A DNA stretch of 36,703 nucleotides from a virus. The position numbers and the translations under genes were made by a program. Shown here piece by piece: positions 4,281 through 36,703 of the stretch. The stretch lies in IMG/VR virus record IMGVR_UViG_3300027870_000006, positions 1-36,703 of that record. One strand, given 5' to 3'. Numbering within the stretch: the first letter of the stretch is position 1; every line of letters starts with the position of its first letter. The notes beneath the pieces were generated by a model. That model was not told the origin of the DNA and did not search any database. It saw nothing but the letters and a program-made list of their open reading frames with translations.

Positions 4281-4300
4281 AAAGCCTACGCATAGGCTTT
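4281..4300 (-). terminator. Terminator of the phage early operon
   Basis: AAAGCCTA-CGCA-TAGGCTTT forms an 8-bp perfect stem that overlaps the Mor stop codon. Read on the minus strand it is followed by a short T run (TTTT then AAA). It would stop early transcription before the prophage end. Confidence 0.55.
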
Positions 4301-5216: not shown

Positions 5217-5220
5217 GTCT

Positions 5221-9764: not shown

Positions 9765-10495
9765 AACCCCCTGTTCGCAGCCAGGTGGCCGGTGAAGTCA
9801 GCGCAAAGAGGCTTGCCCTTGACGTGGGCCACGTCCACCTCGTTCCAGCTATTGGCCTGCGCCCATGCTTCGATGTTGGCGATTGCGTTCAGGATGTGGC
9901 GCATGCGGCCTTTGCTGTCTCGATGGATTTGTTCCACCAGGGCAGGTGACATGACCACATCGGCCTTGGCCTTGCACACGGTCTGAACGTCGCTCAGGTC
10001 CAGGGGGTGCAGTTGCACCACGCGGGCCACGCGGCTTGCGATGTGTTCGTAGCGCTGAACTATGGCTGGGAAGTACTCCATGCCGACCAGGAACACCATG
10101 GTGCCGGTCACGTCGGAAATATCGCGGATGGTCTCCAGCTTGGCTGCGCTCTTCATGTCGGCCAGGTAATCGGCCTCATCAATGATCAGCGCCTGCATGG
10201 TCTGCGCCAGGTGCTGGGCGATGCGGTTCTCGATGTCTTTGGCCGAGCCGCGCACAGCCAGCCCCAGCTCGGTGGCTATGTCTTCCAGCATGGAGCGTGC
10301 CGTCCATACCCGCTTGGCGCGGATGAAAGCATGACCGTTCTCGCTGGCCCAGCGCTCCGTCAGCTCGCTCTTGCCGATGCCGTACTGGCCCTGAATCAGC
10401 ACCAAGCTCGCCTCGCGGGCACCCCGGCGCGCAACGATCTTCTCGGCTTCCTTGAGCAGCCGGAAGTTGTTGGTTTGCACGAATCCTTTTTTCAC
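9761..10495 (-). CDS. MuB-type AAA+ ATPase, transposition target protein
   Basis: 244 residues from GTG at 10495, with GAAGGGG upstream. The Walker A motif GQYGIGKSE is at residues 35-43 and Walker B LIIDEADYL follows at about 104-112, then a sensor-like region (MVFLVGMEYF) and an arginine-rich segment (RYEHIASRVARVVQL). The C-terminal helical domain ends at about residue 235. MuB-like ATPases form filaments on target DNA, stimulate the transposase and provide target immunity. It is shorter than Mu B (312 residues) and lacks its long N-terminal HTH extension, as in BcepMu-like phages. It lies 65 bases after the transposase gene. Confidence 0.85.
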   Translation of the reverse strand: MKKGFVQTNNFRLLKEAEKIVARRGAREASLVLIQGQYGIGKSELTERWASENGHAFIRAKRVWTARSMLEDIATELGLAVRGSAKDIENRIAQHLAQTMQALIIDEADYLADMKSAAKLETIRDISDVTGTMVFLVGMEYFPAIVQRYEHIASRVARVVQLHPLDLSDVQTVCKAKADVVMSPALVEQIHRDSKGRMRHILNAIANIEAWAQANSWNEVDVAHVKGKPLCADFTGHLAANRGL

Positions 10496-10560: not shown

Positions 10561-12786
10561 TCACAGGGCACTCTTAAAACCGGGTCCGTCTTCGCTGCTG
10601 AGACCCGCGTCATCCCACCCCAGGCCCCGCGCCGCGTAGTAGTCGGCCAAGCCCTCATAACCATCGCTTTGCACGTACTGGTGCAGCCAATGCGCGTCGC
10701 TGGCATCCCATCGGTCGCGGTGGCCCATAAGCCACTCGTAGCGGTCGCTGGACGTGTCAAAGAAAGGCCTGCCCGAAGCCGCTTGCACGGCTTCGCCCTC
10801 GGAGGAAGCGTTGAGAGGGAGGGAGGAGAAAACCTCCGGGGTGGAGGGCACGACCACGAATGGCGCGCTGGGCTCCGGCAGGGAAAACTGGGCGGGTTGC
10901 ACCGTGGTCTGCAGCTCGCGCAATGCGAGGTCGATCTGCTGCTCACGGCGCTTGACAGCGGCCTTGACGCGCTTCTCGCGTGCCATGTCGATGACAGGCG
11001 TCGGGAAGAAGTCGCGGCGGCTGGCTTCGAACTTGGCCTCGCAGACGTACTCGCCATCCAGCGTGTAGACCAGCACGAAGCTCGGGTCGTGGATGTCGTA
11101 GCGCACGCTGACTTCGCGGCCATCCACATCGCGGCGCATCAGCTCGGGCGCTGCGTAGGTCTGGTTGAAGAACGTGATCTGGCCGCGCTTGGCTGTGCGC
11201 AGGATGGCGGGCATGAACATCATGCGCAGCTCGAGCTGGGTGAGCAGCTCCTGCTCCTCGACCTTGTATTCGGTGGCCCACATCTCGGCGGGCGTCATGC
11301 GCTTGCCATTCGCAAGCTTGGGCAGCATGCGGTGGCGATGTTCCTGGTTGTACTCATGCACGGCCTGCTCGACCGCGTCGATGAACTGCGGCCAGGTGGG
11401 CACCTTGTTGCTTAGCACTACCACCTCGCCGGTCTGCTGGGCGCGGCGCACGGCGCGCTGCTCCTTCTGCAACTCGGCCGCTACCTTGCGGAAGGTGCCG
11501 CCGTCAACGTCCTTGCCCTGGTACGTGGCGAAGTTGCGTGCGCAGTTGATGCCCACCGTCTGCCACAGGCGCTCAATGCCCCCGTGGCCTTGCGGCTTGC
11601 CAGCAATGCCGGTGCGGTGGTCGATGCCCAGGCGTGCGCAGAAACCGTCAATCGGGCAGTCCATCTGCTTGGCCGTCTCACCTGCGCCGTTATCGCCGTA
11701 GAGGATGGCGGGCACGCCCCAGAGGCTCACGCCATGGCGCAAGGCATCGCCCACCGCGCGGACGTTCTCCGAGAGGTTCACCGACCAGCCCGTAATCATC
11801 CGGCTGCGAGCGTCGATGCACACCGTCAGCTCAGGCGCGAAGGGGGCGCCGTGATCAGGGTGGCGCACCTTGGCTTTAAAAGTATGGCCGTCAATCAGCC
11901 AGCAGTCGTTGGGCTTCAATCCCGAGGTGTCACGCCACCGGAAGGGAAGCTTGGCATCGCGCTGGGCACCAGGTGCATGGCGGGCCTTGATGAGCGCCGT
12001 GTTGGCCTGGTGGCTCTTGCCGAACTTGTCCAGGGCGCGGCGCGCCCGGGCGTACAGCGCCTTCCAGGTGTCGAAGTCACGGCCGAGTTGGCGGGTCACT
12101 TCCTTGGCCGCGCCGGTCAGCTTGCGAAAGCGAGCGTCGCGGCTGTGGAATAGCCCGAGGACCGCCGCCACGTCCTGCTCCACGTCATGAAGCGTGGGCT
12201 CGGGTGCCTGGGCAGGCAGCAGGCCCCACCATCCTTCGGCGCGGTAGATGCCGATGTAGCGCTCCAGGGTGCGGGCGCTGACCTGGTCGGCGCGGGCACG
12301 TTGGTTGGCCTTGCGGGCGGTGGCCTGCAGGTCAGCGCTGGCTTGGCCGCTGGCGAACTGCAGAGCGACCGTGGCGCAAGCGCGTTTGATGCCGTGCAAT
12401 GGCTCCAGGTCGAGCACCAGATTCACCAGGACCATGCGGGCATCGGCAGTTGCCTTGTCGGTGAGGCTGGGCGGGCGGCGGGTCGGCTCTGGCGCGGGAG
12501 CCAGGGGCGCAGGCAGTGGCTTCTCGGGTGGGGCGAAAGACACCATTGGGGCGGTGTCGATCTGAGCCAGGGCGGTGCCTGCCGCCTTCGAAACCGTGCG
12601 GACCGCAATGGCAGCGCGGGTTTCTGCGGGCAAAGCGGTCGTGTTGTATTCCTGGCCGCCGCCGCCTTCGCGGCCCATGCGGGGGCGTGATTCGACTGCT
12701 AGACGGGTGAGGCGTTCGCGGGTGCGGAACTCGGTGCTGGGCATGCCAGGCAGACCAGCGATTTCGCGTGCGGTGAGCCACGTCAT
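10561..12786 (-). CDS. MuA-type DDE transposase
   Basis: 741 residues. The N-terminal Mu-type DNA-binding region (TWLTAREIAGLPGMPSTEFRTRERL) is followed by end-binding helical domains. The rve/DDE core contains Asp299 (LIDGHTF), Asp365 (LYGDNGAG) and Glu405 (GGIERLWQ), matching the D, D, E arrangement of MuA. A beta-barrel region follows (about 505-570, with DREVSVRYDIHDPSFVLVYT) and a charged C-terminal domain that would contact the B ATPase. It catalyses insertion and replicative transposition of the phage genome. The start overlaps the Ner stop (ATGA), so the two are co-translated. TTTAAA at 11875-11880 lies in the TFKA segment next to Asp299. Confidence 0.92.
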   Translation of the reverse strand: MTWLTAREIAGLPGMPSTEFRTRERLTRLAVESRPRMGREGGGGQEYNTTALPAETRAAIAVRTVSKAAGTALAQIDTAPMVSFAPPEKPLPAPLAPAPEPTRRPPSLTDKATADARMVLVNLVLDLEPLHGIKRACATVALQFASGQASADLQATARKANQRARADQVSARTLERYIGIYRAEGWWGLLPAQAPEPTLHDVEQDVAAVLGLFHSRDARFRKLTGAAKEVTRQLGRDFDTWKALYARARRALDKFGKSHQANTALIKARHAPGAQRDAKLPFRWRDTSGLKPNDCWLIDGHTFKAKVRHPDHGAPFAPELTVCIDARSRMITGWSVNLSENVRAVGDALRHGVSLWGVPAILYGDNGAGETAKQMDCPIDGFCARLGIDHRTGIAGKPQGHGGIERLWQTVGINCARNFATYQGKDVDGGTFRKVAAELQKEQRAVRRAQQTGEVVVLSNKVPTWPQFIDAVEQAVHEYNQEHRHRMLPKLANGKRMTPAEMWATEYKVEEQELLTQLELRMMFMPAILRTAKRGQITFFNQTYAAPELMRRDVDGREVSVRYDIHDPSFVLVYTLDGEYVCEAKFEASRRDFFPTPVIDMAREKRVKAAVKRREQQIDLALRELQTTVQPAQFSLPEPSAPFVVVPSTPEVFSSLPLNASSEGEAVQAASGRPFFDTSSDRYEWLMGHRDRWDASDAHWLHQYVQSDGYEGLADYYAARGLGWDDAGLSSEDGPGFKSAL

Positions 12787-14101: not shown

Positions 14102-15898
14102 GTGTTTATCGAACAAGTTCAATTACACCGATTCAAGCAATTTAAATCCGCGAATGTGGAGTTGAATCATGGTCTCTCGCTTCTTGTGGGGGGCAACAAT
14201 GCGGGCAAGTCTTCAATCCTTCATGCTCTTGCAGTTTGGGAGTTTTGCAAGACGATGCTGGCGTTTGTACGAGGCCCTAAGGCTTGGACGATGGGCGGTG
14301 GGGCGCAAGGCATTGGCGTAGGTATGTCGGAGTTCAGTCCAATAAACGTTCCTTCGCTAAAACATCTGTGGACGGATTTAAAGACTCAACGACTCAATGA
14401 GCCTGACGGCTACACATTGAAAATTAGAGTAATTTGGTCATCAGGTGCCAGTGCAAAGAAACATCTCGAGTTCGGCCTATCTCTGACGAACGATCGTCTG
14501 TTTATTAAAACAACTAGTACAAATTTGACGTCACAGGAATTAATTGGCGCAGACCAAAATCCTATCGCAGGTGTTGTGCCCAACATCGCCTATCTTCCGC
14601 CTTTCGCAGGAATTACTGACCGCGAGGCACGCAGTAGCGTCGCAATGAGAAATCGACTGATTGGACAAGGTCTGTCCGGCGGCGTCATCAGAAATGTCCT
14701 CTATGACATGTGGGATAGGAATCGGCAGGAGCGCAAGCGATTGCGTGGGGATAAGCCAAAAATCAGTTCCTCAGCGCTTGCCGGGCTGAGGCAGACTGAC
14801 TCATGGGAACTGCTGATTAAAGCACTAGGAGATCTCTTCGGGATGGGTCTCACGATGGGTGAGTTCGATGACAGGTATCACACCTACCTCAACGTCGAAA
14901 CAATTCGCGGCAAGATGACTGGTCCAGTTATTAAGCGCGCTAAAAATGATGCTTCTCGTGATTTGATGGTAGAGGGAAGCGGGTTCTTGCAATGGCTTAG
15001 TGTCTATGCGCTAGCTCTCTCACCGGATGTAGATGTGGTTCTGCTGGATGAGCCAGATGCTCACCTTCATGCATCTCTGCAAGTTGACTTGGTACGTTAC
15101 CTGTCGGATCTGGCACTTAAGAAAAGTAAGCAGGTGCTGATGGCGACACACTCTACAGAGTTGATAAAAGGTTTTGACTGCAAGTCGATCATGCAAGTCA
15201 AAGGTTCTAAGGCGAAGTATTTGAACGAAGAGGGGCAGAAAATTGGAGTGCTTGCTGGCATCGGCTCTTCATATTCCCCAAGGCTACATCAGCTAACTCA
15301 AGATCGCAAACTGTTGATTGTTGAGGGTACGTTCGATGAAGCTATCCTCCCAATTTTTGCAGAAAAGCTAGGGATTGCATGGCCGAAAAACATTGTTATC
15401 TGGGTGTGGACTGGGGGGCACAAGGAACGTCGGCAGCTATTTGCGCAACTCCAGGCGAACATAGATGGATTGCGGGCCATAAGCATTCGAGATCGCGATG
15501 ACGAAGCCGACGGTGGTGTGGGAGCTGACCTTCTCGATAAAGGCGTCAAAGCGAGCAACGATGGATTCGTCGCTTACAAATGGCGGCGGCGTCACCTCGA
15601 CAACTATCTCATCAGCACACCAGCGATTGCTAGAGCTAGTGGCAGAACTGAGGCGGAAGTACTTCAGTTGTTTAGTGAAAAGCATGCCATCGCACTTCCC
15701 GCTGACTTAACTGTGAGTGATGTAGCTATGGTGATCCGAGACGCGCGGGGTAAAGAGATCATGTCTGTTGGTCCTGACTCAGTTGAATCAGTTCTGAAAG
15801 TGACTCGATACGACGTTGCACATGCAATGCTGCCCGAAGAGGTACCGGTCGATATTGTCACTCTCATAGCGGATATTCGCCATTTCGCGGATCACTGA
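14102..15898 (+). CDS. OLD-family ATP-dependent nuclease (ATPase plus TOPRIM), phage cargo
   Basis: 598 residues from GTG at 14102. The ATPase has Walker A GGNNAGKSS (30-38), Walker B VVLLDEPDAHLH with Asp316 and Glu317, and an H-loop at His350 (ATHST). The TOPRIM nuclease has Glu408 (LIVEGTFDEA) and Asp464-x-Asp466 (RDRDDE). OLD proteins are defence or superinfection-exclusion nucleases; the P2 phage Old protein blocks lambda. No UvrD-like helicase partner follows, so it resembles stand-alone class 1 OLD rather than Gabija. It lies between the repressor and the lysis genes, has lower GC than its neighbours, and a terminator lies downstream (16111). It may be expressed in the lysogen. Confidence 0.88.
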   Translation: MFIEQVQLHRFKQFKSANVELNHGLSLLVGGNNAGKSSILHALAVWEFCKTMLAFVRGPKAWTMGGGAQGIGVGMSEFSPINVPSLKHLWTDLKTQRLNEPDGYTLKIRVIWSSGASAKKHLEFGLSLTNDRLFIKTTSTNLTSQELIGADQNPIAGVVPNIAYLPPFAGITDREARSSVAMRNRLIGQGLSGGVIRNVLYDMWDRNRQERKRLRGDKPKISSSALAGLRQTDSWELLIKALGDLFGMGLTMGEFDDRYHTYLNVETIRGKMTGPVIKRAKNDASRDLMVEGSGFLQWLSVYALALSPDVDVVLLDEPDAHLHASLQVDLVRYLSDLALKKSKQVLMATHSTELIKGFDCKSIMQVKGSKAKYLNEEGQKIGVLAGIGSSYSPRLHQLTQDRKLLIVEGTFDEAILPIFAEKLGIAWPKNIVIWVWTGGHKERRQLFAQLQANIDGLRAISIRDRDDEADGGVGADLLDKGVKASNDGFVAYKWRRRHLDNYLISTPAIARASGRTEAEVLQLFSEKHAIALPADLTVSDVAMVIRDARGKEIMSVGPDSVESVLKVTRYDVAHAMLPEEVPVDIVTLIADIRHFADH

Positions 15899-20191: not shown

Positions 20192-21715
20192 ATGAGCTTT
20201 TATTCCAGACTGCGGGAGGCTGTCGGCTTGGCGCCCGCGTCAGCCTCCGCACCCGTGCCCACGCCAGCGCCTGTCACCGTTCGCGAGAGTGCCTCTGCAC
20301 AGGGCAACGACGACGCGAGCTGGCGCCGCTTGAGCGGCGATAGCCTGTCCAAACAGAACGACCGCGACCTGTCGCCCATGGCGCAGGACCGCATGCAGAA
20401 GGTGGCCGAATACCTTTGGCAAAGCAACCTGCTTGCCAACCGCCTGGTGGAGCTGCCGCTGGCCTATCTGCTGGCCGAGGGGGTGACGCTGCAGTGCAAG
20501 GATGAGGAGCACCAGAAGCTGCTCAACGCCTTCTGGTCGGACCCCATCAACAACTGGCCTTTAAAGCTCACCCCCCGGGTACGAGCCCTGGGCCTGCTGG
20601 GTGAGCAGTGCTACATCGCCAACGTGCGCGAGGGTGACGGCTTTGTGCGTCTGGGTTACCTGGACCCGCGCCAGATCGCCACGGTGGTGACCGACCCGGA
20701 CAACCCCGAGCAGCCCATTGGCGTGGTCACCAAGCGCGACAACCGGGGAAAGAACCACAAATACCGCGTGATCGTGCTGGGTGATGACAGCGACCTGTTC
20801 AGTGCCAACACCGCCCGCATCCGCGCTGACGATTTCACGGACGGCGAGTGCCTGCTGTACCAGCTCAACAAGTTTCCGAACGGCAGCCGTGGCCGCAGCG
20901 ACTTGCTGGGCCAGATCGACTGGCTGGACGCCTATGACGAGTTCCTCTTCAACGAGCTGGACCGCATTGGCTACCTGCGCTCGTTTGTATGGGATGTGAC
21001 GTTGACGGGTGCCGACTCCGATGCGGTCAAGGCATACGAGAAGACCTTCACGCCGCCCGGCCCCAACAGCACCTTCGTGCACAACGACAGCGTGAAGCTG
21101 GAGGCCAAGACCCCCGAGCTGCAGGCCGCCGACACCAGCCAGAGCGCTCGCCTACTGCGCAACCATGTCCTGGGCGGCAGCACCACGCCAGAGCACTGGT
21201 TTGGCGGTGGTGGGGACGTCAACCGAGCCGCTGCTTCTGAAATGGGCGAGCCCACCTTCAAGGTCTACACCGGGCGGCAGAACTTCCTCAAGCTGGCGCT
21301 GGAGGAGATTGGACGCTTCGTACTGTGGAAGGCTGCACAAGCGAGCGGCGCCAAGCCCGACTGGTCTGAAGACGCATGGCAGGTCACTGCGGTGTTCCCT
21401 GAGCTGGTGAACCGAGACGTGGCCAAGTTTGCAGCTGCCATGGCCTCGGCGGTCACTGCTGTCATCCAGATGATCGACGCCGGGCTGCTCACCGAAGAGA
21501 CCGGGCTCAAGATCGTGGCGGACGTGGCGCAGCGCTTCGGCCAGGACTTCGACGCCAAGACCGAGCTGGAGGCGGCGCGCAAGGAGCATGCCGAACGCAA
21601 GAAGGCCAAGGCTGCAGAGGACAGCTTCAACCTGCCAGCCGATCTGCGGGGCGAGTTGCAGGCGGGCCAGGCCAAGTCCAAGGGTGAGCCTGCGCCAGCG
21701 GATGCCCAGGCGTGA
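20192..21715 (+). CDS. Phage portal protein
   Basis: 507 residues. It follows the large terminase and precedes a MuF-like protein, which is the standard portal position. The centre shows alternating beta and helical parts with repeated acidic turns (RQIATVVTDPDNPEQPIG; KDDGECLL-like ADDFTDGECLL) and the C-terminal part is helical and charged. The family (Mu gp29-like versus another portal class) is not settled by eye. The portal forms the DNA entry ring of the head and docks the terminase. TTTAAA at 20560-20565 includes a rare TTA codon. Confidence 0.75.
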   Translation: MSFYSRLREAVGLAPASASAPVPTPAPVTVRESASAQGNDDASWRRLSGDSLSKQNDRDLSPMAQDRMQKVAEYLWQSNLLANRLVELPLAYLLAEGVTLQCKDEEHQKLLNAFWSDPINNWPLKLTPRVRALGLLGEQCYIANVREGDGFVRLGYLDPRQIATVVTDPDNPEQPIGVVTKRDNRGKNHKYRVIVLGDDSDLFSANTARIRADDFTDGECLLYQLNKFPNGSRGRSDLLGQIDWLDAYDEFLFNELDRIGYLRSFVWDVTLTGADSDAVKAYEKTFTPPGPNSTFVHNDSVKLEAKTPELQAADTSQSARLLRNHVLGGSTTPEHWFGGGGDVNRAAASEMGEPTFKVYTGRQNFLKLALEEIGRFVLWKAAQASGAKPDWSEDAWQVTAVFPELVNRDVAKFAAAMASAVTAVIQMIDAGLLTEETGLKIVADVAQRFGQDFDAKTELEAARKEHAERKKAKAAEDSFNLPADLRGELQAGQAKSKGEPAPADAQA

Positions 21716-22635
21716 CACCAGAGCAGAAGCGTTTTGAAGCCGCGCTCAAGGAGCGCCTGGCTGAACGTGCCAGGCTGCTGATCCAGGCCGATCAGCGGGT
21801 GGTGGGCCTGCTGCGGGACGCCCAGCTCCAGATCTCGCTGCAGCTCGCCCAGCAGCCCGCCGACTGGAAGCAATGGCAGCTGACCAGGCTGAAGGATCAG
21901 ATCGCCATCGTCCTGGCCGCCATGGGACAGCAGGCGGGCACCGCAGCCGACCAGGCGCTGCGCGATGCCTGGCAGCAGGGAGAAGACCTGGTCGACAAGC
22001 CGCTCGGCGCAGCGGGACACTCCATCGAGCTGCGCCTGGCCGCCCTGGATGCCCGGGTGCTTGCAGCGATGCGCACCTTCAGCCACGAGCGCCTGAACAA
22101 TGTTGCGGCCGAGGCCCTGGGCAAGATCGGGCAGCAGCTCGGCCTGGTCACGGTGGGGGGCATCACGCCCTTTGAAGCCATCAAGGCGGTCCAGGCCCTG
22201 CTGGAGACCGAGTCGACCAGGCGGGCCACCACCATCGTGCGCACCGAGGTCAGCCGGGCCTTTGCCGTGGCATCCCAGGACCGCCTGGTGCAGGCAGCGC
22301 CCCTGGTGCCTGGCCTGGGCAAGCAGTGGCGTCGCAGCGGGAAGATTCACAGCCGGTGGACGCATGACCTGATGGACGGCCAGGTGGTCGATGCCGGCAA
22401 GCCTTTCTTGGTGCCCAACGCTGGTGGCGGTATCGACAAGATGATGTGCCCTCATGACCCGAAGGCGCCACCCGAACAGGTGATCAACTGCGGGTGTATT
22501 GCGATCCCCTACCTCAAGGGATGGGCCGTGGCCACGCCCGGTGCCAAGCCGTTTTCTGAGCTGGAGCTGAGGCTGGATGGGAGGAAGGCGGCGCTTGACC
22601 AGGCTGCGAAGAAGGCGGGGCGACGAAAGGAGTGA
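21712..22635 (+). CDS. MuF-like minor head protein
   Basis: 307 residues from GTG at 21712, overlapping the portal stop (GTGA). The MuF/SPP1 gp7-like signature lies in the C-terminal half: VRTEVSRAFAVASQDR, then RWTHDLMDGQVVDAGKPF, then CPHDP...PEQVINCGC near residues 245-263. These minor head proteins sit near the portal and assist head morphogenesis. The last residues are basic (AAKKAGRRKE). Confidence 0.85.
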   Translation: MTPEQKRFEAALKERLAERARLLIQADQRVVGLLRDAQLQISLQLAQQPADWKQWQLTRLKDQIAIVLAAMGQQAGTAADQALRDAWQQGEDLVDKPLGAAGHSIELRLAALDARVLAAMRTFSHERLNNVAAEALGKIGQQLGLVTVGGITPFEAIKAVQALLETESTRRATTIVRTEVSRAFAVASQDRLVQAAPLVPGLGKQWRRSGKIHSRWTHDLMDGQVVDAGKPFLVPNAGGGIDKMMCPHDPKAPPEQVINCGCIAIPYLKGWAVATPGAKPFSELELRLDGRKAALDQAAKKAGRRKE

Positions 22636-24416: not shown

Positions 24417-26837
24417 ATGAACTGGGCTCAACTCATTGCAGCGCTGGCGGCCTGTGGCGGTCTGCGAACCGGCCAGGCAGTCGAAGCCGCCATGCGCGAG
24501 GCCGCTGCTGCGCCCGAGCGCGACTTCCGCCAACTGATTGACGTGGTGCGCGCCGCGATCTCCGAGCAGGTCAACAGCGGTCGCCTGCCTGAGCAGCGCC
24601 GGTACTGCAGTCTCTCGGCCATCTACAGCGACCGCGCTGTGATCGAGCTGGACGGCAAGCACTTCCAGTACAGCTACTCGTTCAAGCACATCGCGGGCTC
24701 CGACCAGGTCGTGTTGGGCGCGCCCATCGAGGTGGTCGAGCAGTACGTGCCAACCGCACCTGCCGCCGCGCCAAAAGCCGCACCTGGCGCGCCAACGACC
24801 GCCGCATCGGCCGTGCGTGAAGCGCTGGGCGACGAGGTGTTCCGCGAGGCCTCTGACGGCTCCATCGTGGTGACGCTGATCCGCTCCGGCCGCAGCGGCA
24901 ACCGCAACTACTACCCCGACGCCACTCTGCGCGAGGCCGTGTCCATGTTCGAAGGCGTGCGCGTGTTCGCCAAGAGCGACGCGGAGCACATCGCGGGCAA
25001 GGGCAAGGACGTTCGCAACCTCATCGGCGGCATCTACGGCGTGCGCTTTGTCGAGGGCAAGACACCCGACACCGGCTCGCTGGTCGGCACCTTCAAGGCG
25101 CTCGACCCCACCGAGGCAGCGGTGACAAAGATGACCGAGGCCGTGAAGCGCGGGATGCAGAGCCTGCTGGGCCTGTCCATCGATGCGGATGCGCGCACCA
25201 AGCAGCGCAAGGCCGGTGCCGAGACCCTGCGCGAGGCCGTGAAGTTCACCAAGGTGCACTCCGTTGACCTGATTGTCGAACCGGGCGCTGGCGGCGGCCT
25301 GGATCGCCTCACTGAAGCCGCCGCCGACCAACCTCTCAACAACCCCGAAGGAAACGCAATGCCTCTCTGGAAGCAACGCATGCTGGAGGCCATCAAGGCC
25401 AAAGACCCCGCCAAGCACGCCACCATCAACGCCGAGACCATCGGCGACGACGAGCTGGTCAACCTGCACGAAGCCGTGTGCGGCTCCCTAGTGCCGAGCG
25501 CGCCAGGCGCTACCCGCATCGCCGAAGCCCAGGGCGACAACACGCCGCTAACGCGCGCGGACCTGGAAGTGTTCACCCTGCGTGGCGCTGCCCGCGACCG
25601 CATCAGCGCCGCCAAGCTGCCCCAAGCCGCCAAGGACCGCCTGCAGGCGCAGGTCAGCATCGCGGGTGCTGATCGTCTGACCGAGGCCGCCGTGGGCGAC
25701 CTGATCAAGGCCGAGGGCGAGTACATCGCCCGCATGACCGAGAGCGGTGCAGTGCGTGTGCCCATATTCGGCAATGGCTCCATCGTCGTGGGCGACCGCA
25801 GCCTGACGATGCGCGACATGCTCGACGCCTTCTGGGACCCGACCCACAAGGACCACGGCCGGGTTCAGTCTTTCAAGGAGTGCTACATCGAGATGACGGG
25901 CGACCGCCTGGTGACAGGCCGCCTGCGCGAGTGCGATCAGTCGCGCCTGGTCGAGTCGCTCGGTAGCGGCTCGCTCGGCGAAGTGCTGGGCGACAGCGTG
26001 ACGCGCCGCATGCTGGCCGAGTACCGCGCAGCGGTGGACTTCGACGGCTGGCGCCAACTGGTCAATGTGGTACCGGTGTCCGACTTCCGCATGCAGCACC
26101 GCACGCGCTGGGGTGGCTATGGCGACCTGCCCGTAGTGGCGGAGGGAGCCGACTACCAGGCGCTGACCAGCCCGAGCGACGAAGAGGCCACCTACAAGGC
26201 TGACAAGCGCGGTGGCAAGGAAGAAGTGACGCTGGAGATGATCAAGAACGATGACGTGGGTGTGATTCGCCGCATCCCCACGAAGCTCTCTCGCGCCGCC
26301 AAGCGCACGCTTGCCAAGTTCGTGTTCGACTTCCTGCGCAGCAATGCGGTGATCTACGACTCCAAGACGCTGTTTCACGTCGACCACGCCAACCTGTTCG
26401 CGGCTGCGCTGTCGAAGGCCGAGCTGGCTGTCCACCGCCTGGCGATGCTCAAGCAGACCGAGCTGAGCAGCAACGACCGGATCGGCATCGCTCCATCGCG
26501 CCTGGTGGTGCCTGCCGACCTGCAGGAAGCGGCGGTCGACTTGTTCAAGCTGTCCACCAACAACGAGAAAACGTTCATCCAGTCGCTGACGATGAACATC
26601 ATCCCCGTCTGGTACTGGACCGACCCTAACGACTGGTGCACGGCGGCCGACCCGGCCGACATCCCCGGCATCGAGCTGGGCTTCCTGGACGGGCAGCAAG
26701 AGCCCGAGCTGTTCGTGCAGGACACGCCGAACGTGGGCTCGATGTTCGCGGCCGACAAGCTGACTTACAAGATTCGCCACATCTACGGCGGCGCGGTGAC
26801 CGACTTCCGCGCTTTCACCAAGGCCGTGGTGGCCTGA
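24417..26837 (+). CDS. Prohead protease fused to major capsid protein
   Basis: 806 residues. After an unplaced N-terminus (1-110), residues ~140-300 look like a prohead protease: GNRNYYPDATL, then AEHIAGK with a likely catalytic His, LLGLSIDAD with a likely Ser, and VHSVDLIVEPGAGGG at the end. A scaffold-like helical linker follows, then from about 505 a capsid domain (WRQLVNVVPVSDFRMQHRTRW; KLSTNNEKTFIQSLT; DTPNVGSMFAADKLTYKIRHIYG). An internal ATG at 25359 with AAGGAAA before it could give a separate scaffold/capsid product. In Mu these are separate genes (I, Z, T). Confidence 0.82.
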   Translation: MNWAQLIAALAACGGLRTGQAVEAAMREAAAAPERDFRQLIDVVRAAISEQVNSGRLPEQRRYCSLSAIYSDRAVIELDGKHFQYSYSFKHIAGSDQVVLGAPIEVVEQYVPTAPAAAPKAAPGAPTTAASAVREALGDEVFREASDGSIVVTLIRSGRSGNRNYYPDATLREAVSMFEGVRVFAKSDAEHIAGKGKDVRNLIGGIYGVRFVEGKTPDTGSLVGTFKALDPTEAAVTKMTEAVKRGMQSLLGLSIDADARTKQRKAGAETLREAVKFTKVHSVDLIVEPGAGGGLDRLTEAAADQPLNNPEGNAMPLWKQRMLEAIKAKDPAKHATINAETIGDDELVNLHEAVCGSLVPSAPGATRIAEAQGDNTPLTRADLEVFTLRGAARDRISAAKLPQAAKDRLQAQVSIAGADRLTEAAVGDLIKAEGEYIARMTESGAVRVPIFGNGSIVVGDRSLTMRDMLDAFWDPTHKDHGRVQSFKECYIEMTGDRLVTGRLRECDQSRLVESLGSGSLGEVLGDSVTRRMLAEYRAAVDFDGWRQLVNVVPVSDFRMQHRTRWGGYGDLPVVAEGADYQALTSPSDEEATYKADKRGGKEEVTLEMIKNDDVGVIRRIPTKLSRAAKRTLAKFVFDFLRSNAVIYDSKTLFHVDHANLFAAALSKAELAVHRLAMLKQTELSSNDRIGIAPSRLVVPADLQEAAVDLFKLSTNNEKTFIQSLTMNIIPVWYWTDPNDWCTAADPADIPGIELGFLDGQQEPELFVQDTPNVGSMFAADKLTYKIRHIYGGAVTDFRAFTKAVVA

Positions 26838-28987: not shown

Positions 28988-29024
28988 GCCGCCCGCCACC
29001 CAATCACCCCAGGAGCACTTGCCC

Positions 29025-29957
29025 ATGTCCGATCCGATCTTCATCAACCAGACCGTCATCCTCGCCAAGGTCGAGGCGGTCAAAGGCACCGACTCGACGC
29101 CGACCGCAGCCGCCAACGCGCTGCTGATCAGCGATGTGACCTTCACGCCCCTGGAAGGCGAAGAGGTCGAGCGCAACAACATCCGTCCATTCTTCGGCGA
29201 CGGCGGCAGCACCATGGTCACGCAGTACGTCAAGCTGGCCTTCTCGGTTGAATATGCCGGAGTGGCCGCTGCTGGCGATGTGCCTGGCTACGAACCCCTG
29301 CTGCGCGCAGGTGGTGCCAGCGTGACCGTCGCTGCAGGGACGGACGTGCGCTTTGCTCCCGTGACGCAGGGCCAGGAAAGCGTGACCGTTTACATCGCGG
29401 TCGGCCCCAACCTGCAGAAGATCACGGCGGGCATGCTGAACGTGAAGCTTTCGGCTGCGGCCAAGTCCATCCCCAAGCTGCAGGTGGAGATCACCGGCAC
29501 TTACAAGGCTGCGACCGCTGGAGCACTGCCAGGCGCGCTCTACACCAAGTTCCAAGACCCATTTGGCGTGAACAAGGCCAATACGACGCTCGACCTGCAC
29601 GGCGTGCCGGTAGCGGCCAGCGGCTTCGAGTTCGACTTCGGCAACGTGGTGGTCAAGCGCGACATGATCAATGTGGACTCCGTGGCGATCACCGACCGCA
29701 AGAGCAAGGGCTCGGTCACCTTCGACAACACGCCCGTCGCCGACAAGAACTGGGTGGAACTGGCCCGCCAGGGCGCTCGCGGCCCGCTGCACCTAAAGCA
29801 CGGCCCCGGCGCCACCAACGTGGTCGAGCTGATCGCTCCCAACGTGCAGCTCGGCAAGCCCACCTTCGGCGAGCTGGACGGCATCCAGACCATCACGACC
29901 CCGCTGCGCTTCATCCCGGTCCTCGGCAACGACGAGTGGGAGATCGTGGTCCGCTGA
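29025..29957 (+). CDS. Major tail tube protein (siphovirus type)
   Basis: 310 residues from the ATG at 29025, 9 bases after AGGAG. It is beta-rich with hallmark pieces TVILAKVEAVKGTDSTPT at the start, FGDGGSTMVTQYVKLAFSVEYAG and IPKLQVEITGTYKAATAG in the middle, and FIPVLGNDEWEIVVR at the end. Such proteins stack as hexamers into the flexible tail tube. There is no sheath gene next to it, so the tail is probably non-contractile, unlike Mu. Confidence 0.78.
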   Translation: MSDPIFINQTVILAKVEAVKGTDSTPTAAANALLISDVTFTPLEGEEVERNNIRPFFGDGGSTMVTQYVKLAFSVEYAGVAAAGDVPGYEPLLRAGGASVTVAAGTDVRFAPVTQGQESVTVYIAVGPNLQKITAGMLNVKLSAAAKSIPKLQVEITGTYKAATAGALPGALYTKFQDPFGVNKANTTLDLHGVPVAASGFEFDFGNVVVKRDMINVDSVAITDRKSKGSVTFDNTPVADKNWVELARQGARGPLHLKHGPGATNVVELIAPNVQLGKPTFGELDGIQTITTPLRFIPVLGNDEWEIVVR

Positions 29958-30012: not shown

Positions 30013-30489
30013 ATGGCAGTCCGCATCTCGGGCCTGAAACCCATCGTCATCTGCCCCGCCACCGTGTACCTGGTGGGCGACAACGGCGAGCAAATCCCCC
30101 ATCACTTCGACGTCGAATTCCGCCGCATGACGACGGTAGAGCGCAATACGTTGAACGAAAAGTACGCCATCGGCTACGACGTGCCGGTGGAGATCGACGC
30201 CGCCGACCCGGACCAGACACCGCGCACGAAGCGGGTTCACCTGTCCAACGCCGAGCTGCTCGATGAAATCGTGGTTGGCTGGGGAAAGATGCTCGATGAG
30301 AACGGCCAGCCGGTGCCTTACAGCCATGCGGAGCGCCTCGCCACCGAGAACGAGTACTCCGGCCTGGAGCAGGCCATGGTGGTGTCCTGGCTGGATCACT
30401 TCTTCTTCAACCAGCGCGAGGCCGCCATAAAAAACTCCAAGGCGCAGTCCGGCACCGCCTCGGCCGGGACGACTCGCGCCGCCACGTAG
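30013..30489 (+). CDS. Tail assembly chaperone, short form (G-like)
   Basis: 158 residues. Positioned directly between the tail tube and the tape measure, the place of lambda G/GT-type chaperones. It contains FDVEFRRMTTVERNTLNEKYA and LLDEIVVGWGKMLDENGQPVPY. Its end holds the slippery sequence A_AAA_AAC (30429-30435), where about-to-be-frameshifted ribosomes enter the -1 frame. The normal frame stops at 30487-30489. Confidence 0.75.
   Translation: MAVRISGLKPIVICPATVYLVGDNGEQIPHHFDVEFRRMTTVERNTLNEKYAIGYDVPVEIDAADPDQTPRTKRVHLSNAELLDEIVVGWGKMLDENGQPVPYSHAERLATENEYSGLEQAMVVSWLDHFFFNQREAAIKNSKAQSGTASAGTTRAAT
30429..30435 (+). promoter_or_regulatory. Programmed -1 ribosomal frameshift site
   Basis: In the zero frame the codons are ATA AAA AAC, giving the ideal X_XXY_YYZ heptamer A_AAA_AAC. 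The -1 frame is open from here to 30830 with no stop. In siphophages the tail chaperone pair is made this way, with the long form in a small fraction. Confidence 0.75.
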
Positions 30490-30830
30490 TCGACGACCAA
30501 CTGCGCGCCACCTGCGTGCTGCTGCGTGTCGACATCGACCAGCTCGTGCCCACCACCCTGCAGAAAGACAAGCCCGATGACTTCGACCTGTGGCCCGAGC
30601 ACTGGCAGGCGTGGGATGTGTACCTGGGGTGCGGCACGCAGTGGCGGTACAGGGCGGTCCCCAGGGGCCTGCAGGCAAGTATCACGGTGTGCGAGGGCCT
30701 GGACTACCAAGGCGTGGAGGTGGTGATGCGGCGCTACCGGGTGCCCGAAGCAAGGTTCGATGAAGTCTTCAGCCAACTGCAGGTACTGGAAGCGGAGACG
30801 GTCGCCATCCGCAACAGCGAGGCCCGATAA
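30435..30830 (+). CDS. Tail assembly chaperone, T-like extension made by frameshift (DUF1799)
   Basis: About 131 residues added after the slip, reading on as LQGAVRHRLGRDDSRRHVV and then LLRVDIDQLVPTTLQKDKPDDFDLWPEHW. The part WPEHWQAWDVYLGCGTQWR is typical of DUF1799. There is no good start codon or ribosome binding site of its own; the first start candidate is a GTG at 30516, so frameshift fusion to the upstream gene (about 273 residues in all) is the likely route. It would bind the tape measure during tail assembly. Confidence 0.72.
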   Translation, partial: LQGAVRHRLGRDDSRRHVVDDQLRATCVLLRVDIDQLVPTTLQKDKPDDFDLWPEHWQAWDVYLGCGTQWRYRAVPRGLQASITVCEGLDYQGVEVVMRRYRVPEARFDEVFSQLQVLEAETVAIRNSEAR

Positions 30831-30833
30831 GCA

Positions 30834-30857
30834 AAAAGGCCGGGAGACCGGCCTTTT
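30834..30857. terminator. Bidirectional terminator between tail chaperone and tape measure
   Basis: AAAAGGCCGG-GAGA-CCGGCCTTTT is a 10-bp perfect stem with A/T runs on both sides, so it could work on both strands. It lies three bases after the chaperone stop and 25 bases before the stop of the small leftward gene. Confidence 0.72.
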
Positions 30858-30882: not shown

Positions 30883-31020
30883 TTACCGCGAGGTCATTGC
30901 CCGCAGCAGCCACAGCGGCACCACCAGGGCAGGCGCAGCCACCCAGGCCCACAGCAGCACCGAGGGGTGCGGGGCAAGCAGTACGAGGCCTATGAGCCAC
31001 AGCGACAGCAACTTGGACAT
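30883..31020 (-). CDS. Small leftward membrane protein within the late region
   Basis: 45 residues from the ATG at 31020, too short for usual gene calling. Two hydrophobic stretches (SLWLIGLVLLA and VLLWAWVAAPALVVPLWLL) make it a candidate two-pass membrane protein. It points opposite to the whole late operon, toward the terminator at 30834-30857. No strong ribosome binding site is visible. It could be a lysogeny-expressed gene or a chance frame. Confidence 0.4.
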   Translation of the reverse strand: MSKLLSLWLIGLVLLAPHPSVLLWAWVAAPALVVPLWLLRAMTSR

Positions 31021-31038: not shown

Positions 31039-34000
31039 ATGAGCGCGGTACGCCAGATCGGCATCAAGATGACAGTGGACGCTCAGTCGGTAACGACTGA
31101 GCTGCCCAAGGTCACGCGCGAGTTTGCGAACATGGGCGCGAGTGCCGAGCAGGCCTCGGCCCGGACCACCCGCAGCCTGGCCCAGGTGCAGATGTCGGTG
31201 CGCGACATCGTGGCGGGGGCGGCGGGCCTGCATGTGATCGGCGGCGGGATCAACGCCATCACCAAGGCGATCACCGAACTGCCGCGCAACGCCTTCGACT
31301 TCTCCAAGAACCTGGAAGTCAGCCAGGTCGGGATGGCGGGCATCCTGGGGTCGATGACTGCCATCAACGGCAAGCAGACCGACTACAACCAGGCGCTGCG
31401 CATCTCCAGTGAGTACATCCGCAAGCTCAATGATGATGCGCTGCGCACGGCGGCCACCAGCTCGGAGCTGACCACCGTGTTCCAGGCCCTGCTGGCGCCC
31501 GGCCTTTCCGCCAGGATGACCCTGGAAGAAATCCGCCAGCTCACGGTGGTGGGCACGAACGCGGTCAAGTCCATGGGTCTGGACGCCACTCAGGTGGTGC
31601 AGGAGTTGCGTGACCTGGTCGCGGGGGGCATCACGCCCGCCAGCTCGACCCTGGCAAGCGCTCTGGGCCTCAAGGACTCTGACATTCAGAAAGCCAAGTC
31701 ATCCAGCGAGGGCCTGTTCACCTTCCTGATGAGCCGCCTGCAAGGTTTCAAAGCCTCCAGCGAAGCGTTCAACGACACGCTGAAGGGCCGACTCGACCAG
31801 GTCAGAGAGGGTGCCACGCGCGTGGCCGCCGAGGGCATGGAGCCGCTGATCCAGGCCTCCAAGAAAGCCCTGGCCGAGGTGAGCGGCCTGTTCACGACGA
31901 TTGACCAGGCGGGCAACGTCACGCTGAACCAGGAGTTGGTGGACGGCATCCGCGCCTATGCAACCGCTGCCGCCCAGGCGATGGAGATCAGCCGGGACGG
32001 CCTAGCCGTGCTGTGGGAGAACCGTAACGCGATCATGGCGGTGGCTGCGGCTTGGGCCTCGGTGAAGCTGGGCAATGTGGTGGCCGAGACGGTAGCGGCC
32101 ATGGCGGCGAAGGCCGAACTGGCGCAGGCATCGCGCCTCGCTGCAGTGCAGGCTGCGGCCGAGGCGGCGGGCAATGTGGAAGTTGTGGCGACGTCCCGCC
32201 AGAAGATTGCCGCCTACCTGGCCGAGCTGGAGGCCAAGGCCGCCAGCGCCCGGGCCGACATGGTCGCCCAGGCGGCGCAGATCGCCACGCTCAACACCAC
32301 GCGCGAGGCCATCGTGCTGTCGCGCGCCGAGGTGGTTGCGAAGCTGGAGTCCGTGCGCGCCACCATGGCCCAGGCCGAGGCGCAGATCGCGGCAGCCCGG
32401 GCGGCCGGTGCGCAGAGCTTCGCCCTGGCGGCGTTGCGAGAGGGCACGCAGGCACTGACAGCAGCACAGGCTCGCCACGCGATGCTGATGACCGAACTGG
32501 CTGCGCTGGGTAAGCAGCAGGCGGGTGTGAGCGCGGCCCTGGCGACCGCCACCGCAGCCCAGACTGCGGCCACGAACGCTGCCTCGGCCGCAGCTGGAAC
32601 GCTGGCAGCGGCCCAGGGCGCAGCATCCATTGCGGGGCGTGCTCTGAGCGGTGCCATTGGCTTCCTTGGTGGCCCCATTGGCGTGGTCACCACAGCATTG
32701 ACGCTGGGGGTCACGGCTTGGACGCTGTGGGGCAATTCCGCTGAAAAGAGCGTTCAAAAGGTCGAGAAAAGCATCTTCGACAACGCTGCAGAGTTCCGTG
32801 CTGAACTGCGCAGCCAGATTGAGTTGCTCGATCGTCGGAATGCTGCCTTGAAGGGCAATCCAGAAATCAAGGAAGACCGCGCTGCGCAGGTGCTGGGGGG
32901 GCTGCAACAAGAGATTGACCGTCTCAAGACGCTGAAGACGGACAACCCAGCGCAAGAGGCCGCACGTATTGCCCAGCTCCAGCGGGCAACTGCGGACTAC
33001 GGCAGGACCGTTGCCGAGGTCAACGAAAAACAGGCCAAGGGCTCTCAAAACCTGACCGTCACCTCCACGGTCGCCCTGCAGGCCTTCGAAAAGACCATCG
33101 ACGGAGCCAAGACCGCCAGCGCAGCGCAGCAGGAATACACCCAAAAGGTGGAAGCCTCCCGCGCCGCTCTGGAGAACCTCAAAGCCTCGGGCGCGGATGC
33201 AGCAACGCTGACTGCGGCTCAAAAGAAGTTCGACGAGTCCGAGAAGGCATGGGCCACGGAGCGCGACAAGAAGATCAAGGAAATGGGTGCGAGCGCGGCC
33301 AGCGCCCACTCCCACGCCATCGACGCACAGATCGCGGCAGTGCAGCAGGGCTACAAGCTGCTGGCGGCCAAGACCGCCGACGCCCTGGATGAAGTGCAGA
33401 CCTTGCGCCAGCTCGACGTCATCAGCGAGTTCGAAGCGGTGCAGCGCAAGGCGGCGCTGCAGCAGCAGGACGTCGAGAACGAACAGAACTCGCTCAAGCA
33501 GAAGCTGGTGCTGCTCAAGAGCAAGAAGGACACCGCCAAAGAACGCGAGACCGTGGAAGGTCAGCTCGCAGAGCTGGAACAAAGGCGCATCAGCCTGCAG
33601 CGCGCGGCAGCGCGTGACATGGAGGTGCTGCTGATCAAGCCGCAGATCGAGCAGGTCAACGCGGTGCGCCAGGGCACCTCTGCGATTCATGATCAGGCTG
33701 CAGCGCTTGAAGCGCAGAACCGCGTCTACGGCCAGGCTGGATCGGCCCTGGTCGACCTGACCATCGTCCAGTTAGAAAAGCAGCGCCTTGACCTGGAGGC
33801 AACCGACAACGTCATCCCCGGCTACATCGAGGCGCTAGAGCGCCAGATCGCCGCCCAAAAGCGCCTGCGCGCAGCCATGGCCGACAAAGAGTCCAAGGAC
33901 TGGGCCAAGGAGCAAGCCGAGAACGCGGTGAAGGCCAACGAGCGCGCGACCGATGCCATCGAGCGCCAGAACGCCCAGCTCGCGCAGTCGCTCACCGACA

Positions 34001-36703
34001 ACATCATGCGCGGGGGCAAGGATGCCGCCGACTACGTCGAAGACCTGTTCCGCACGATGGTGCTGCGCCCGGTGATTCAGGCGATCATGAGCCCGGTGTC
34101 GATGGCGGTGAACGGGGTCATCAACAGCGGCATGTCGGCCATGGGCCTAGTCAGCAATGGCGCCGGTATGTTCAGCGGCCTGACCAGCGGCAGCGGCGTG
34201 ATGGGCACAGTGGGCAACTGGCTGGGCCTCGGTGCTTCCGCAGGCACGACGACGGGCATCGGCATGGGCACCAGCCTGGCGACACCGGGCATGGCCGCGA
34301 TGATCAACCCGGTAGCAGGCACGGGCGCCGGTATCGGCGGGGGCATGGGTGCGCTGCTGTCCAACCCGATCACTTTGGGCCTGGGCGCCATCGCGGTGCT
34401 GGCAATGATCGGCAAAGCGACCAAGGGCGAGACGCGGACCGGCGGGCAGTTCGGCGTGGCCTACGACGACCGCGTGGTGAACAACCGGCGCGGCCAGACG
34501 TACGACTATGTCGGCCAGCAGTACGACCGGGACTTTTCGAACGGCGAACGCGTGGGCCTGACCAATGGCCGTGCGTACCGCATGGAGGGTGATCCGGTCG
34601 AGAACGAGCAGGCCATCCGCGACGCGGTGTCGGGCACCGCAATGACCATCGACGCCATGCTCAAGGCCCTGGGCAGCACGATGCGGCTCTCGGGCTTCTC
34701 TGCAGGCCTGGAGACCAGCTCCAAGGGCCGTGGCGGTGTGTTCGCGGGCGGCAAGTTCAACAACGGGCAAACCTTCGGCGAGTCGGGCCAGGGCGACAAC
34801 TACGCGGGCACGCTGTACGAGCTTTTCAGCACCAACAGCCCTGACTACAAGACGGCGGTCGAGAACCTGACCCTCGATTTAAAGCAGTCGACCATTCAGG
34901 CTCTGCAGGTCGCGGCCAAGGCTGCGGCCGAAGCGGGAGAGGCCTTCCCGCGCTCCATTGCCCGGCAGATAGCGGATGTTGATGCAGAGCGTCTGACTGG
35001 CGAAGCGGCAGATGCACTGCTGCTGTCCATCAACACCACGATCACGGGCGTGGCGCAGTTTCGCGCCTCTCTGGATTCGATTGGGTTGGACAAGCTGGCC
35101 GACATGGCCTTCGACGCGGCGGTGGCACTGGCAGAGGCCTCGGGCGGGTTTGAGAAGCTGCAGAGCAACCTCGCCTCGTTCTACAACAACTTCTACAGCC
35201 CGGAAGAGCGCAAGGCCAACACCGAGCGCTTGGTGCGCGAGCGGCTGGATTCCGTGGGCATCGAGATGCCCAAGACGCGGGAGGAATACCGCAGGCTTAC
35301 CGAAGACGCTATGGCACGGGCCGACGTCGAAGCTGCCAACCGTGAGCAGCTCATTGCCAACGTGGGCAAGGGTGCTGCAGGGCTGACCGGTTCTGCCATC
35401 ACCGTGGCGGACCTGGGCCGATTGGGCCTGAAGGACGTTGACCCGGCACTGATCGGTGGCAAGGCAGACCCGGAGCGCCAGGCGCAGTTGGGCAGCTTCA
35501 TGGACAGCCTGAACGACGTGCTCGACTCCGGCATGTCTGCTGACAAGGTGCAGGCCAGCGTGGCCGAGCTGGTGGGGCTGAACGCCGAGGTGCTGGGCAT
35601 CAGCACGAGTGCCTCGGACACTGCCGCTGCTCTGCTGGAGATGAACGAGGCGTTCGCCTCTCTCTCCGACACGGCCGAGGACACGGCCAAGAAGCAAAAG
35701 GACGCCGCCAAGGCCGCCACCGACGCCGCCTATGCAATTCTCCAGCGCTCACTGAACCTGGCGCTCGATGCGGCCCGCGCGGCCATGGATGTGGCCCAGG
35801 AGCGTGTCGATGCAGGCCGGGCGCTTCGCGACACCCTGCGCGATCCGATTGATGAGCTGGGCGGCCTGGTGCAGAGCACGCGGACCATGGCGGCAACCCA
35901 AGGCAACGCCATCATCAACCAGGCCGTGGAGACCATGCTGCGCTCGGGCTACCTGCCCGAGTCCGACGACATCAGCGCCGCGATCTCGGCTGCACGCAGC
36001 ACCATGGGCACGGGCGACTACAGCAACCGGCTGGACTATGAAGCCGCCCAGCTCACGCTGCGCAACAAGCTGGAGCTGCTGGACGAAGCGGCGGGAGACC
36101 AGCTCTCGGTGGACGAGCTGCAGCTTGAAGAAGCCAGAGCCCAGGTCGACCACCTGGAGCAGCTCGAAAAGACGGCCAAGGAGCAGCTGGACGCGACACG
36201 CGGTGTAGATACGAGCGTGAAGTCGGTGGACGAGGCCTTCCGTGCCTTTGTGGCGTCGCTCAAGAAGGAGTCCGACGGTGCGGCCGGATCGAAGCCCTCC
36301 AGCGGCAGTGGATCGGTCGGCGGTCCCACCTTCGGGCCTGGGGGCGGTGGCAGCACCACAGCCGCCTCGGAGGCCAAGTACAAGACGCCGATCTACCTGG
36401 GCACGGCGGGCACTGGCTATGAGGCCATCACCGACAAAGATCGCATTACCCATCTGGACAAACTGGCCCCCACGTTTCACAAGTACGACGGCACGAACGA
36501 CTTCGTGGGGCTGGCCAACGACATCAAGGCCAACGGCGGTACCGCCAAAGACATAGCTGCCCTGTACGGCTTTTACGAAAGAGATGTTCTCGCTGCGTTT
36601 GATCGCTACGGCATTGCTCACTTCGAAAGCGGCGGCTCTCACCTGGGCGGCATCCGCCTGGTTGGCGAGAACGGCCCCGAGCTGGAAGTGACCGGCGCAT
36701 CCC
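31039..36703 (+). CDS. Tape measure protein, partial (no stop in window)
   Basis: At least 1,888 residues, open from ATG 31039 to the window end. The start (MSAVRQIGIKMTVDAQSVTTEL) and the following VAGAAGLHVIGGGINAITKAI are tape-measure-like. Alanine-rich coiled coils fill about residues 330-1000, a Gly/Met-rich hydrophobic segment lies at about 1013-1130, and more helical repeats follow. The end carries the common tape measure motif VGENGPELEV at about 1875-1884, so the protein probably ends soon after. Tape measures set tail length (about 0.15 nm per residue), giving a long flexible tail. It starts after a terminator, so it needs readthrough or its own promoter. A TTA codon lies in the TTTAAA at 34878-34883. 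Confidence 0.92.
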   Translation, partial: MSAVRQIGIKMTVDAQSVTTELPKVTREFANMGASAEQASARTTRSLAQVQMSVRDIVAGAAGLHVIGGGINAITKAITELPRNAFDFSKNLEVSQVGMAGILGSMTAINGKQTDYNQALRISSEYIRKLNDDALRTAATSSELTTVFQALLAPGLSARMTLEEIRQLTVVGTNAVKSMGLDATQVVQELRDLVAGGITPASSTLASALGLKDSDIQKAKSSSEGLFTFLMSRLQGFKASSEAFNDTLKGRLDQVREGATRVAAEGMEPLIQASKKALAEVSGLFTTIDQAGNVTLNQELVDGIRAYATAAAQAMEISRDGLAVLWENRNAIMAVAAAWASVKLGNVVAETVAAMAAKAELAQASRLAAVQAAAEAAGNVEVVATSRQKIAAYLAELEAKAASARADMVAQAAQIATLNTTREAIVLSRAEVVAKLESVRATMAQAEAQIAAARAAGAQSFALAALREGTQALTAAQARHAMLMTELAALGKQQAGVSAALATATAAQTAATNAASAAAGTLAAAQGAASIAGRALSGAIGFLGGPIGVVTTALTLGVTAWTLWGNSAEKSVQKVEKSIFDNAAEFRAELRSQIELLDRRNAALKGNPEIKEDRAAQVLGGLQQEIDRLKTLKTDNPAQEAARIAQLQRATADYGRTVAEVNEKQAKGSQNLTVTSTVALQAFEKTIDGAKTASAAQQEYTQKVEASRAALENLKASGADAATLTAAQKKFDESEKAWATERDKKIKEMGASAASAHSHAIDAQIAAVQQGYKLLAAKTADALDEVQTLRQLDVISEFEAVQRKAALQQQDVENEQNSLKQKLVLLKSKKDTAKERETVEGQLAELEQRRISLQRAAARDMEVLLIKPQIEQVNAVRQGTSAIHDQAAALEAQNRVYGQAGSALVDLTIVQLEKQRLDLEATDNVIPGYIEALERQIAAQKRLRAAMADKESKDWAKEQAENAVKANERATDAIERQNAQLAQSLTDNIMRGGKDAADYVEDLFRTMVLRPVIQAIMSPVSMAVNGVINSGMSAMGLVSNGAGMFSGLTSGSGVMGTVGNWLGLGASAGTTTGIGMGTSLATPGMAAMINPVAGTGAGIGGGMGALLSNPITLGLGAIAVLAMIGKATKGETRTGGQFGVAYDDRVVNNRRGQTYDYVGQQYDRDFSNGERVGLTNGRAYRMEGDPVENEQAIRDAVSGTAMTIDAMLKALGSTMRLSGFSAGLETSSKGRGGVFAGGKFNNGQTFGESGQGDNYAGTLYELFSTNSPDYKTAVENLTLDLKQSTIQALQVAAKAAAEAGEAFPRSIARQIADVDAERLTGEAADALLLSINTTITGVAQFRASLDSIGLDKLADMAFDAAVALAEASGGFEKLQSNLASFYNNFYSPEERKANTERLVRERLDSVGIEMPKTREEYRRLTEDAMARADVEAANREQLIANVGKGAAGLTGSAITVADLGRLGLKDVDPALIGGKADPERQAQLGSFMDSLNDVLDSGMSADKVQASVAELVGLNAEVLGISTSASDTAAALLEMNEAFASLSDTAEDTAKKQKDAAKAATDAAYAILQRSLNLALDAARAAMDVAQERVDAGRALRDTLRDPIDELGGLVQSTRTMAATQGNAIINQAVETMLRSGYLPESDDISAAISAARSTMGTGDYSNRLDYEAAQLTLRNKLELLDEAAGDQLSVDELQLEEARAQVDHLEQLEKTAKEQLDATRGVDTSVKSVDEAFRAFVASLKKESDGAAGSKPSSGSGSVGGPTFGPGGGGSTTAASEAKYKTPIYLGTAGTGYEAITDKDRITHLDKLAPTFHKYDGTNDFVGLANDIKANGGTAKDIAALYGFYERDVLAAFDRYGIAHFESGGSHLGGIRLVGENGPELEVTGAS

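Follow-up and report, generated by a model that had tools for sequence, protein, structure and literature searches.

A predicted lambda G/GT-type -1 frameshift site in the chaperone/DUF1799 gene pair of a Mu-like phage

The window analysed here, a 36,703-nucleotide stretch of viral DNA (IMG/VR record IMGVR_UViG_3300027870_000006), encodes a DUF1799 domain in a -1 frame that overlaps a tail chaperone ORF, raising the question of how this domain is translated. A preliminary description proposed that ribosomes slip at an A_AAA_AAC heptamer, following the strategy of the lambda G/GT genes, and that DUF1799 is made as the C-terminal part of a tail chaperone. The heptamer in lambda is G_GGA_AAG. Based on comparative analyses of the sequence, we estimate a probability of roughly 0.93 that the pair is expressed by a lambda G/GT-type -1 ribosomal frameshift.

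Layout of the gene pair and its Mu-like setting

The genes are arranged in the order tail protein, chaperone, DUF1799 and tape measure (Table 1), which places the pair between a tail protein and the tape measure, as in the lambda G/GT type. Near the 3' end of the chaperone ORF, the codons at 30427-30435 read ATA AAA AAC, such that the heptamer is in the zero-frame phase required for a -1 slip, and the -1 frame contains no stop codon from 30300 up to the TAA at 30828-30830; both features agree with the preliminary description. The predicted fusion comprises 141 + 131 = 272 residues. A second in-phase heptamer of the chaperone ORF (GGGAAAG at 30282) is unable to make the fusion because a -1-frame stop follows at 30297-30299. 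The word AAAAAAC occurs six times on both strands of the window as compared to 1.9 expected, and by itself it therefore says little. When the codons of the chaperone ORF were shuffled, an in-phase heptamer (XXXYYYZ, where Y is A or T) appeared within the last 20 codons in 0.88% of the shuffles.

Table 1. Coordinates of the gene pair, its neighbours and the Mu-like genes in the window.
Feature	Position	Strand	Evidence or remark
Upstream tail protein	29019..29957	+	phrog_290
Zero-frame tail assembly chaperone ORF (G-like), 158 aa	30013..30489	+	phrog_569, phrog_313, AlphaFold model
Slippery heptamer A_AAA_AAC	30429..30435	+	sequence; in-phase heptamer in 122/124 loci
-1 frame (T-like part), 131 codons, stop TAA 30828-30830	30435..30830	+	DUF1799 at 30573-30800
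Stretch 3' of heptamer, both frames read	30436..30486	+	-1 frame favoured by conservation
Zero-frame stop TAG, 51 nt past heptamer	30487..30489	+	sequence
Tape measure ORF, reaching window end	31039..36703	+	phrog_3519 (5.8e-07) in first 787 aa
Late activator	4299-4715	-	profile match
GemA	4722-5339	-	profile match
MuB-like ATPase	9761-10495	-	profile match
MuA transposase	10561-12786	-	profile match
Mu F-like protein	21712-22635		profile match

The protein encoded in the -1 frame matches Pfam family DUF1799 (PF08809) at 75.2 bits (E 4.7e-21; curated cut-off 26), confirming its original identification. The chaperone matches phrog_569 (4.7e-06) and phrog_313, named 'Tail assembly chaperone' (0.02), the phrog_569 match alone falling within limits of E 0.001 for PHROGs and 0.01 for Pfam; no Pfam family, Phage_TAC_4 (PF08748) included, was matched by this protein. 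Forty-eight of the 60 zero-frame proteins listed were aligned, of which 37 match phrog_569 and seven match phrog_313 at E 0.001, while four match Phage_TAC_4 at E 0.01. All 48 aligned -1 frames match the DUF1799 profile, and the junction residues are at least 90% conserved in both alignments (K-K-L in the -1 frames and K-N in the zero frames). A single PHROGs model, phrog_17368, covers both the chaperone and DUF1799 domains; a natural in-frame fusion was sought with it in 398 genomes, where the two halves were separate matches. AlphaFold predicted the chaperone and the DUF1799 part with pLDDT values of 93.3 and 96.5, respectively. Viral models named 'tape measure chaperone', from Enterobacter phage Ec_L1 and Serratia phage Scapp, are similar to that of the chaperone (E 0.012 to 0.065, probability 0.98-1.00). 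In the PDB, Foldseek found nothing similar to either of the two models at E 0.001 or better. A separate search for relatives of solved structure gave none for DUF1799 at E up to 1. For the chaperone it gave similarities to GpsB and Protein L alone (E 0.018 or worse), and nothing was inferred from these searches.

The neighbourhood of the pair contains additional features. A hairpin, AAAAA-GGCCGG-gaga-CCGGCC-TTTT, is located at 30833-30857 directly 3' of the DUF1799 stop and is terminator-like in both directions; it was spotted by eye and is absent from the hairpin scan output. Between DUF1799 and the tape measure, a minus-strand ORF (30883-31020) encodes a small hydrophobic antisense product of 45 aa, and similar antisense ORFs occupy the same place in seven of 14 relatives checked (L002, L003, L006, L007, L009, L018 and L035). 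Its variation by codon position (0.50, 0.39, 0.56) is only a weak sign of coding, and it is possibly a membrane-peptide moron.

The MuA-type transposase and MuB-like ATPase matches (PF09299, 3.4e-17; phrog_310, 1.6e-138; phrog_296, 2.2e-43) mark the window as derived from a transposable phage. Along with GemA and the late activator, they uphold the Mu-like assignment made in the preliminary description. Its emphasis on the strangeness of the combination with this tail was overstated, as transposable phages with siphovirus tails are already known (PMC4378225, PMC5488378). Elsewhere in the window, an 806-aa ORF (24417-26837) has a C-terminal capsid domain (residues 506-802, PF25209), is also matched by 'major head and protease' families, and looks like a protease-capsid fusion. 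An AAA ATPase (AAA_15, AAA_21) at 14102-15898, near a CI-like repressor, has a weak OLD-like TOPRIM match and could be a phage-borne defence gene.

The heptamer among DUF1799 relatives

The chief support for the predicted frameshift is the conservation of the heptamer in relatives, which the preliminary description had suggested as a check. DUF1799 loci were obtained from virus contigs, named genome contigs, a Pseudomonadota genome sample and four phage records. They number 124, including the window itself and copies, and merging near-identical sequences left 87. To be counted, a heptamer had to lie in a zero frame with 50 or more open codons ahead of it. An in-phase slippery heptamer is present at 122 of the 124 loci, and the two that lack it (L040 and L066) start at a contig end and are not testable there. 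It is found in all 87 testable unique loci, as compared to 2.55 expected from codon shuffling; the sequence is AAAAAAC in 67, GGGAAAC in 16, and GGGAAAG, GGGAAAA, AAAAAAT and AAAAAAG in one each. The virus-contig and named-genome loci were gathered by their likeness to the window (one set is the best 80 of 117), so the fairer set is the Pseudomonadota sample, which was not picked in this way. In it, 30 of 398 genomes matched, and one locus per genome was taken from a total of 39 matches, leaving out nine. The heptamer is present in 30/30 of the loci taken, among which L123 is under the Pfam cut-off and L094 is from the chosen centre.

The DNA and proteins of the window gave no matches when used as queries against named phages, and named relatives were reached via L004 and L002. 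Thirteen named DUF1799 phage records were hand-picked from listings of 671 and 17 records, and ten of them contain the heptamer (AUS531phi, PS-1, GeorgBuechner, CUB19, vB_ThpS-P1, Silvergun, IMM-001, Marilyn, RcWaterboi and Susuwatari). Both the site and the overlap are thus kept in relatives, as in the lambda G/GT type. The other three, KLPN1, KL and EB49, keep the same frame overlap without a heptamer, their junctions reading GCA AAA GTT TAA (KLPN1 and KL) and GCA AAG GTC TAA (EB49), and ribosomes would presumably slip there on a shorter motif (A_AAA or A_AAG). At these loci (L140 and L141 from Klebsiella phages, L144 from an Escherichia phage), A_AAA_G or A_AAG stands in place of the heptamer, and T1-like phages may use a weaker site or one of another kind. 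Since the 671 records come mostly from Klebsiella and Escherichia phages, many sequenced phages may have this form without a heptamer. The orf17/18 pair of phage D3 was set aside; it contains GGGAAAG, yet its second ORF does not encode DUF1799.

Constraint on the -1 frame, stop position and RNA structure

Alternatively, DUF1799 could be translated independently from a start of its own, the GTG at 30516 in the window, next to an incidental heptamer. The pair is annotated as two separate genes in 12 of the 13 named records (KLPN1 has a joined CDS), and the VarioGold table also gives two genes. Moreover, the interval between the heptamer and the DUF1799 core contains an ATG, GTG or TTG of some kind in 71 of the 87 loci. 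However, these candidates are unconserved: the first one shares its position in at most eight loci, 16 loci have none, ATG is present in 40, and ATG accompanied by a Shine-Dalgarno-like motif in ten. No conserved DUF1799 start, which the preliminary description had named as grounds for abandoning its proposal, was found among the 87 loci. Its statement that the domain lacks start signals of its own is nearly correct: the GTG at 30516 opens a 104-codon ORF in the window, but no Shine-Dalgarno-like motif precedes this or either of the other two GTGs (the three lie 27, 37 and 61 codons past the heptamer). In addition, the conserved -1-frame peptide starts at the heptamer, 27 codons ahead of GTG 30516 and ahead of the candidate starts in the relatives, and a heptamer present in 87/87 testable loci is hardly incidental. 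We therefore regard a separate DUF1799 gene as very improbable.

The 51-54 nt directly 3' of the heptamer that are read in both frames were compared among 14 unique members of the window clade (91 pairs). At the first, second and third codon positions of the -1 frame, pairs of sequences differ by 0.235, 0.198 and 0.314, respectively. Amino acid identity, averaged over all pairs, is highest for the -1 frame (0.71), as compared to 0.58 for the zero frame and 0.55 for the third frame. Because the third codon position of the -1 frame coincides with the second of the zero frame, this pattern points to the -1 frame as the constrained one.

The position of the zero-frame stop differs among the relatives. 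In 67 of the 87 unique loci it lies directly 3' of the heptamer, whereas in the window clade (14/87) it is located 51-54 nt past the heptamer, giving the short chaperone a tail of 17-18 residues; in the remaining six it is 3 to 30 nt or 105 nt past the heptamer. The Mu transposase C-terminal domain is present in the virus records of three of 16 relatives (L019, L029 and L011, all in the window clade) and absent from those of L030 and L032, which also have the displaced stop; each of these records is possibly incomplete. The predicted frameshift is accordingly not linked to transposition.

Downstream RNA stimulators are common, but not universal, at lambda G/GT-type sites. At each of the 87 loci, 55 nt starting 5 nt past the heptamer were folded and compared to dinucleotide shuffles. 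The mean z-score is -1.61, with 39/87 loci below -2, as compared to -0.19 (6/87) and -0.14 (2/87) for control stretches downstream and upstream, respectively (paired Wilcoxon p 7e-8 and 8e-9, among related and hence not independent sequences). The window itself has no downstream structure beyond that expected from composition (z +0.69 for 85 nt, +0.68 for 60 nt and +0.61 in the family-wide test). A shared stem in the window clade, GCGCNGUC/GACNNCGC, is not supported, as 88.5% of cells are paired versus 88.2% with shuffled partners; it has one compensatory change and lacks covariation support in this clade. An upstream Shine-Dalgarno stimulator was rejected, since the G-rich stretch preceding the heptamer shows no more pairing to CCUCC than to permutations of that motif, and no specific upstream anti-Shine-Dalgarno signal was found family-wide.

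These data also bear on whether the frames are joined by RNA polymerase slipping on the A-run rather than by the ribosome. A run of six A's could in principle allow such slippage, and the sequence alone does not discriminate between the two processes. Against this, 16/87 loci have GGGAAAC and one each GGGAAAG and GGGAAAA, which contain three to four A's only and fit tandem tRNA slippage better, and the strict phase and the RNA structure 3' of the site across the family likewise argue for the ribosome. Transcriptional slippage thus appears extremely improbable.

Proposed mechanism and relation to known systems

In the ribosomal frameshifting model, most ribosomes would read through to the TAG and produce the 158-aa G-like chaperone. 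A minority would slip back by one base on A_AAA_AAC, with the two tRNAs leaving the codons AAA and AAC to pair anew with AAA and AAA. These ribosomes would produce the 272-aa G-T fusion, whose C-terminal 131 residues contain DUF1799. Judging from lambda, the N-terminal part common to both products would interact with the tape measure protein and the DUF1799 part would bring in tail-tube subunits, and the ratio of short to long forms would matter for assembly. The general mechanism is reportedly treated in Xu et al. 2004. The efficiency of the shift may be low, because A_AAA_AAC is less shifty than A_AAA_AAG in E. coli according to PMC5009743.

The predicted frameshifted DUF1799 chaperone belongs to a well-known type, and a proposed site in phage Loki and the annotated join in KLPN1 precede it. 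Frameshifted tail chaperones are long established, and PMC5009743 describes for lambda G/GT overlapping frames between a tail protein and the tape measure, a -1 heptamer, and a short and a long product. The present pair is predicted from its sequence and differs in having A_AAA_AAC and DUF1799 as its -1-frame part. Klebsiella phage KLPN1 gp36 joins the chaperone and DUF1799 in one CDS, although it lacks an XXXYYYZ heptamer and is not Mu-like in its annotation. Acinetobacter phage Loki gp12/gp13, an annotated join, has AAAAAAC beside the zero-frame stop and a fusion proposed in print (PMC5313236), whereas the DUF1799 profile has no match in its second part. The Pseudomonas Mu-like siphophage PaMx73 is transposable and has a siphovirus tail; a -1 site has been proposed where its tail genes overlap, but that site is T_TTT_TTC, 43 codons ahead of the zero-frame stop (PMC4378225). 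Thiobacimonas phage vB_ThpS-P1, a siphophage with Mu-like head genes, has DUF1799 and an in-phase GGGAAAC-TGA; unlike in the window, the stop directly follows the heptamer, and its paper does not mention a frameshift (PMC5488378). The sequence GGGAAAC adjoining a TGA in KL1 is also in print. In the literature searched, which excluded most subscription papers, DUF1799 was found in one paper, that on VarioGold, and in none together with 'frameshift'; we make no claim of priority for the DUF1799 rule.

At present, DUF1799 is labelled a 'phage-related hypothetical protein' in Pfam and a 'tail length tape measure protein' in PHROGs. A broader proposal is that, nearly family-wide, DUF1799 is the -1-frame half of a chaperone that is made by frameshifting only and is split or mis-started in databases, that an XXXAAAC-stop site is common, and that in the window clade the stop moved 17-18 codons downstream, with RNA structure lost in the window. 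Taken jointly, we give these statements slightly better than even odds. The frameshift model gives DUF1799 a probable function, that of the T part in a frameshifted tail chaperone, together with a simple rule for mending its annotation. The heptamer-stop layout and its shift in the window clade form a comparative set for the ratio of the chaperone forms, and if the proposal is true, natural variation would allow the effect of an adjacent stop and RNA structure on this ratio to be tested.
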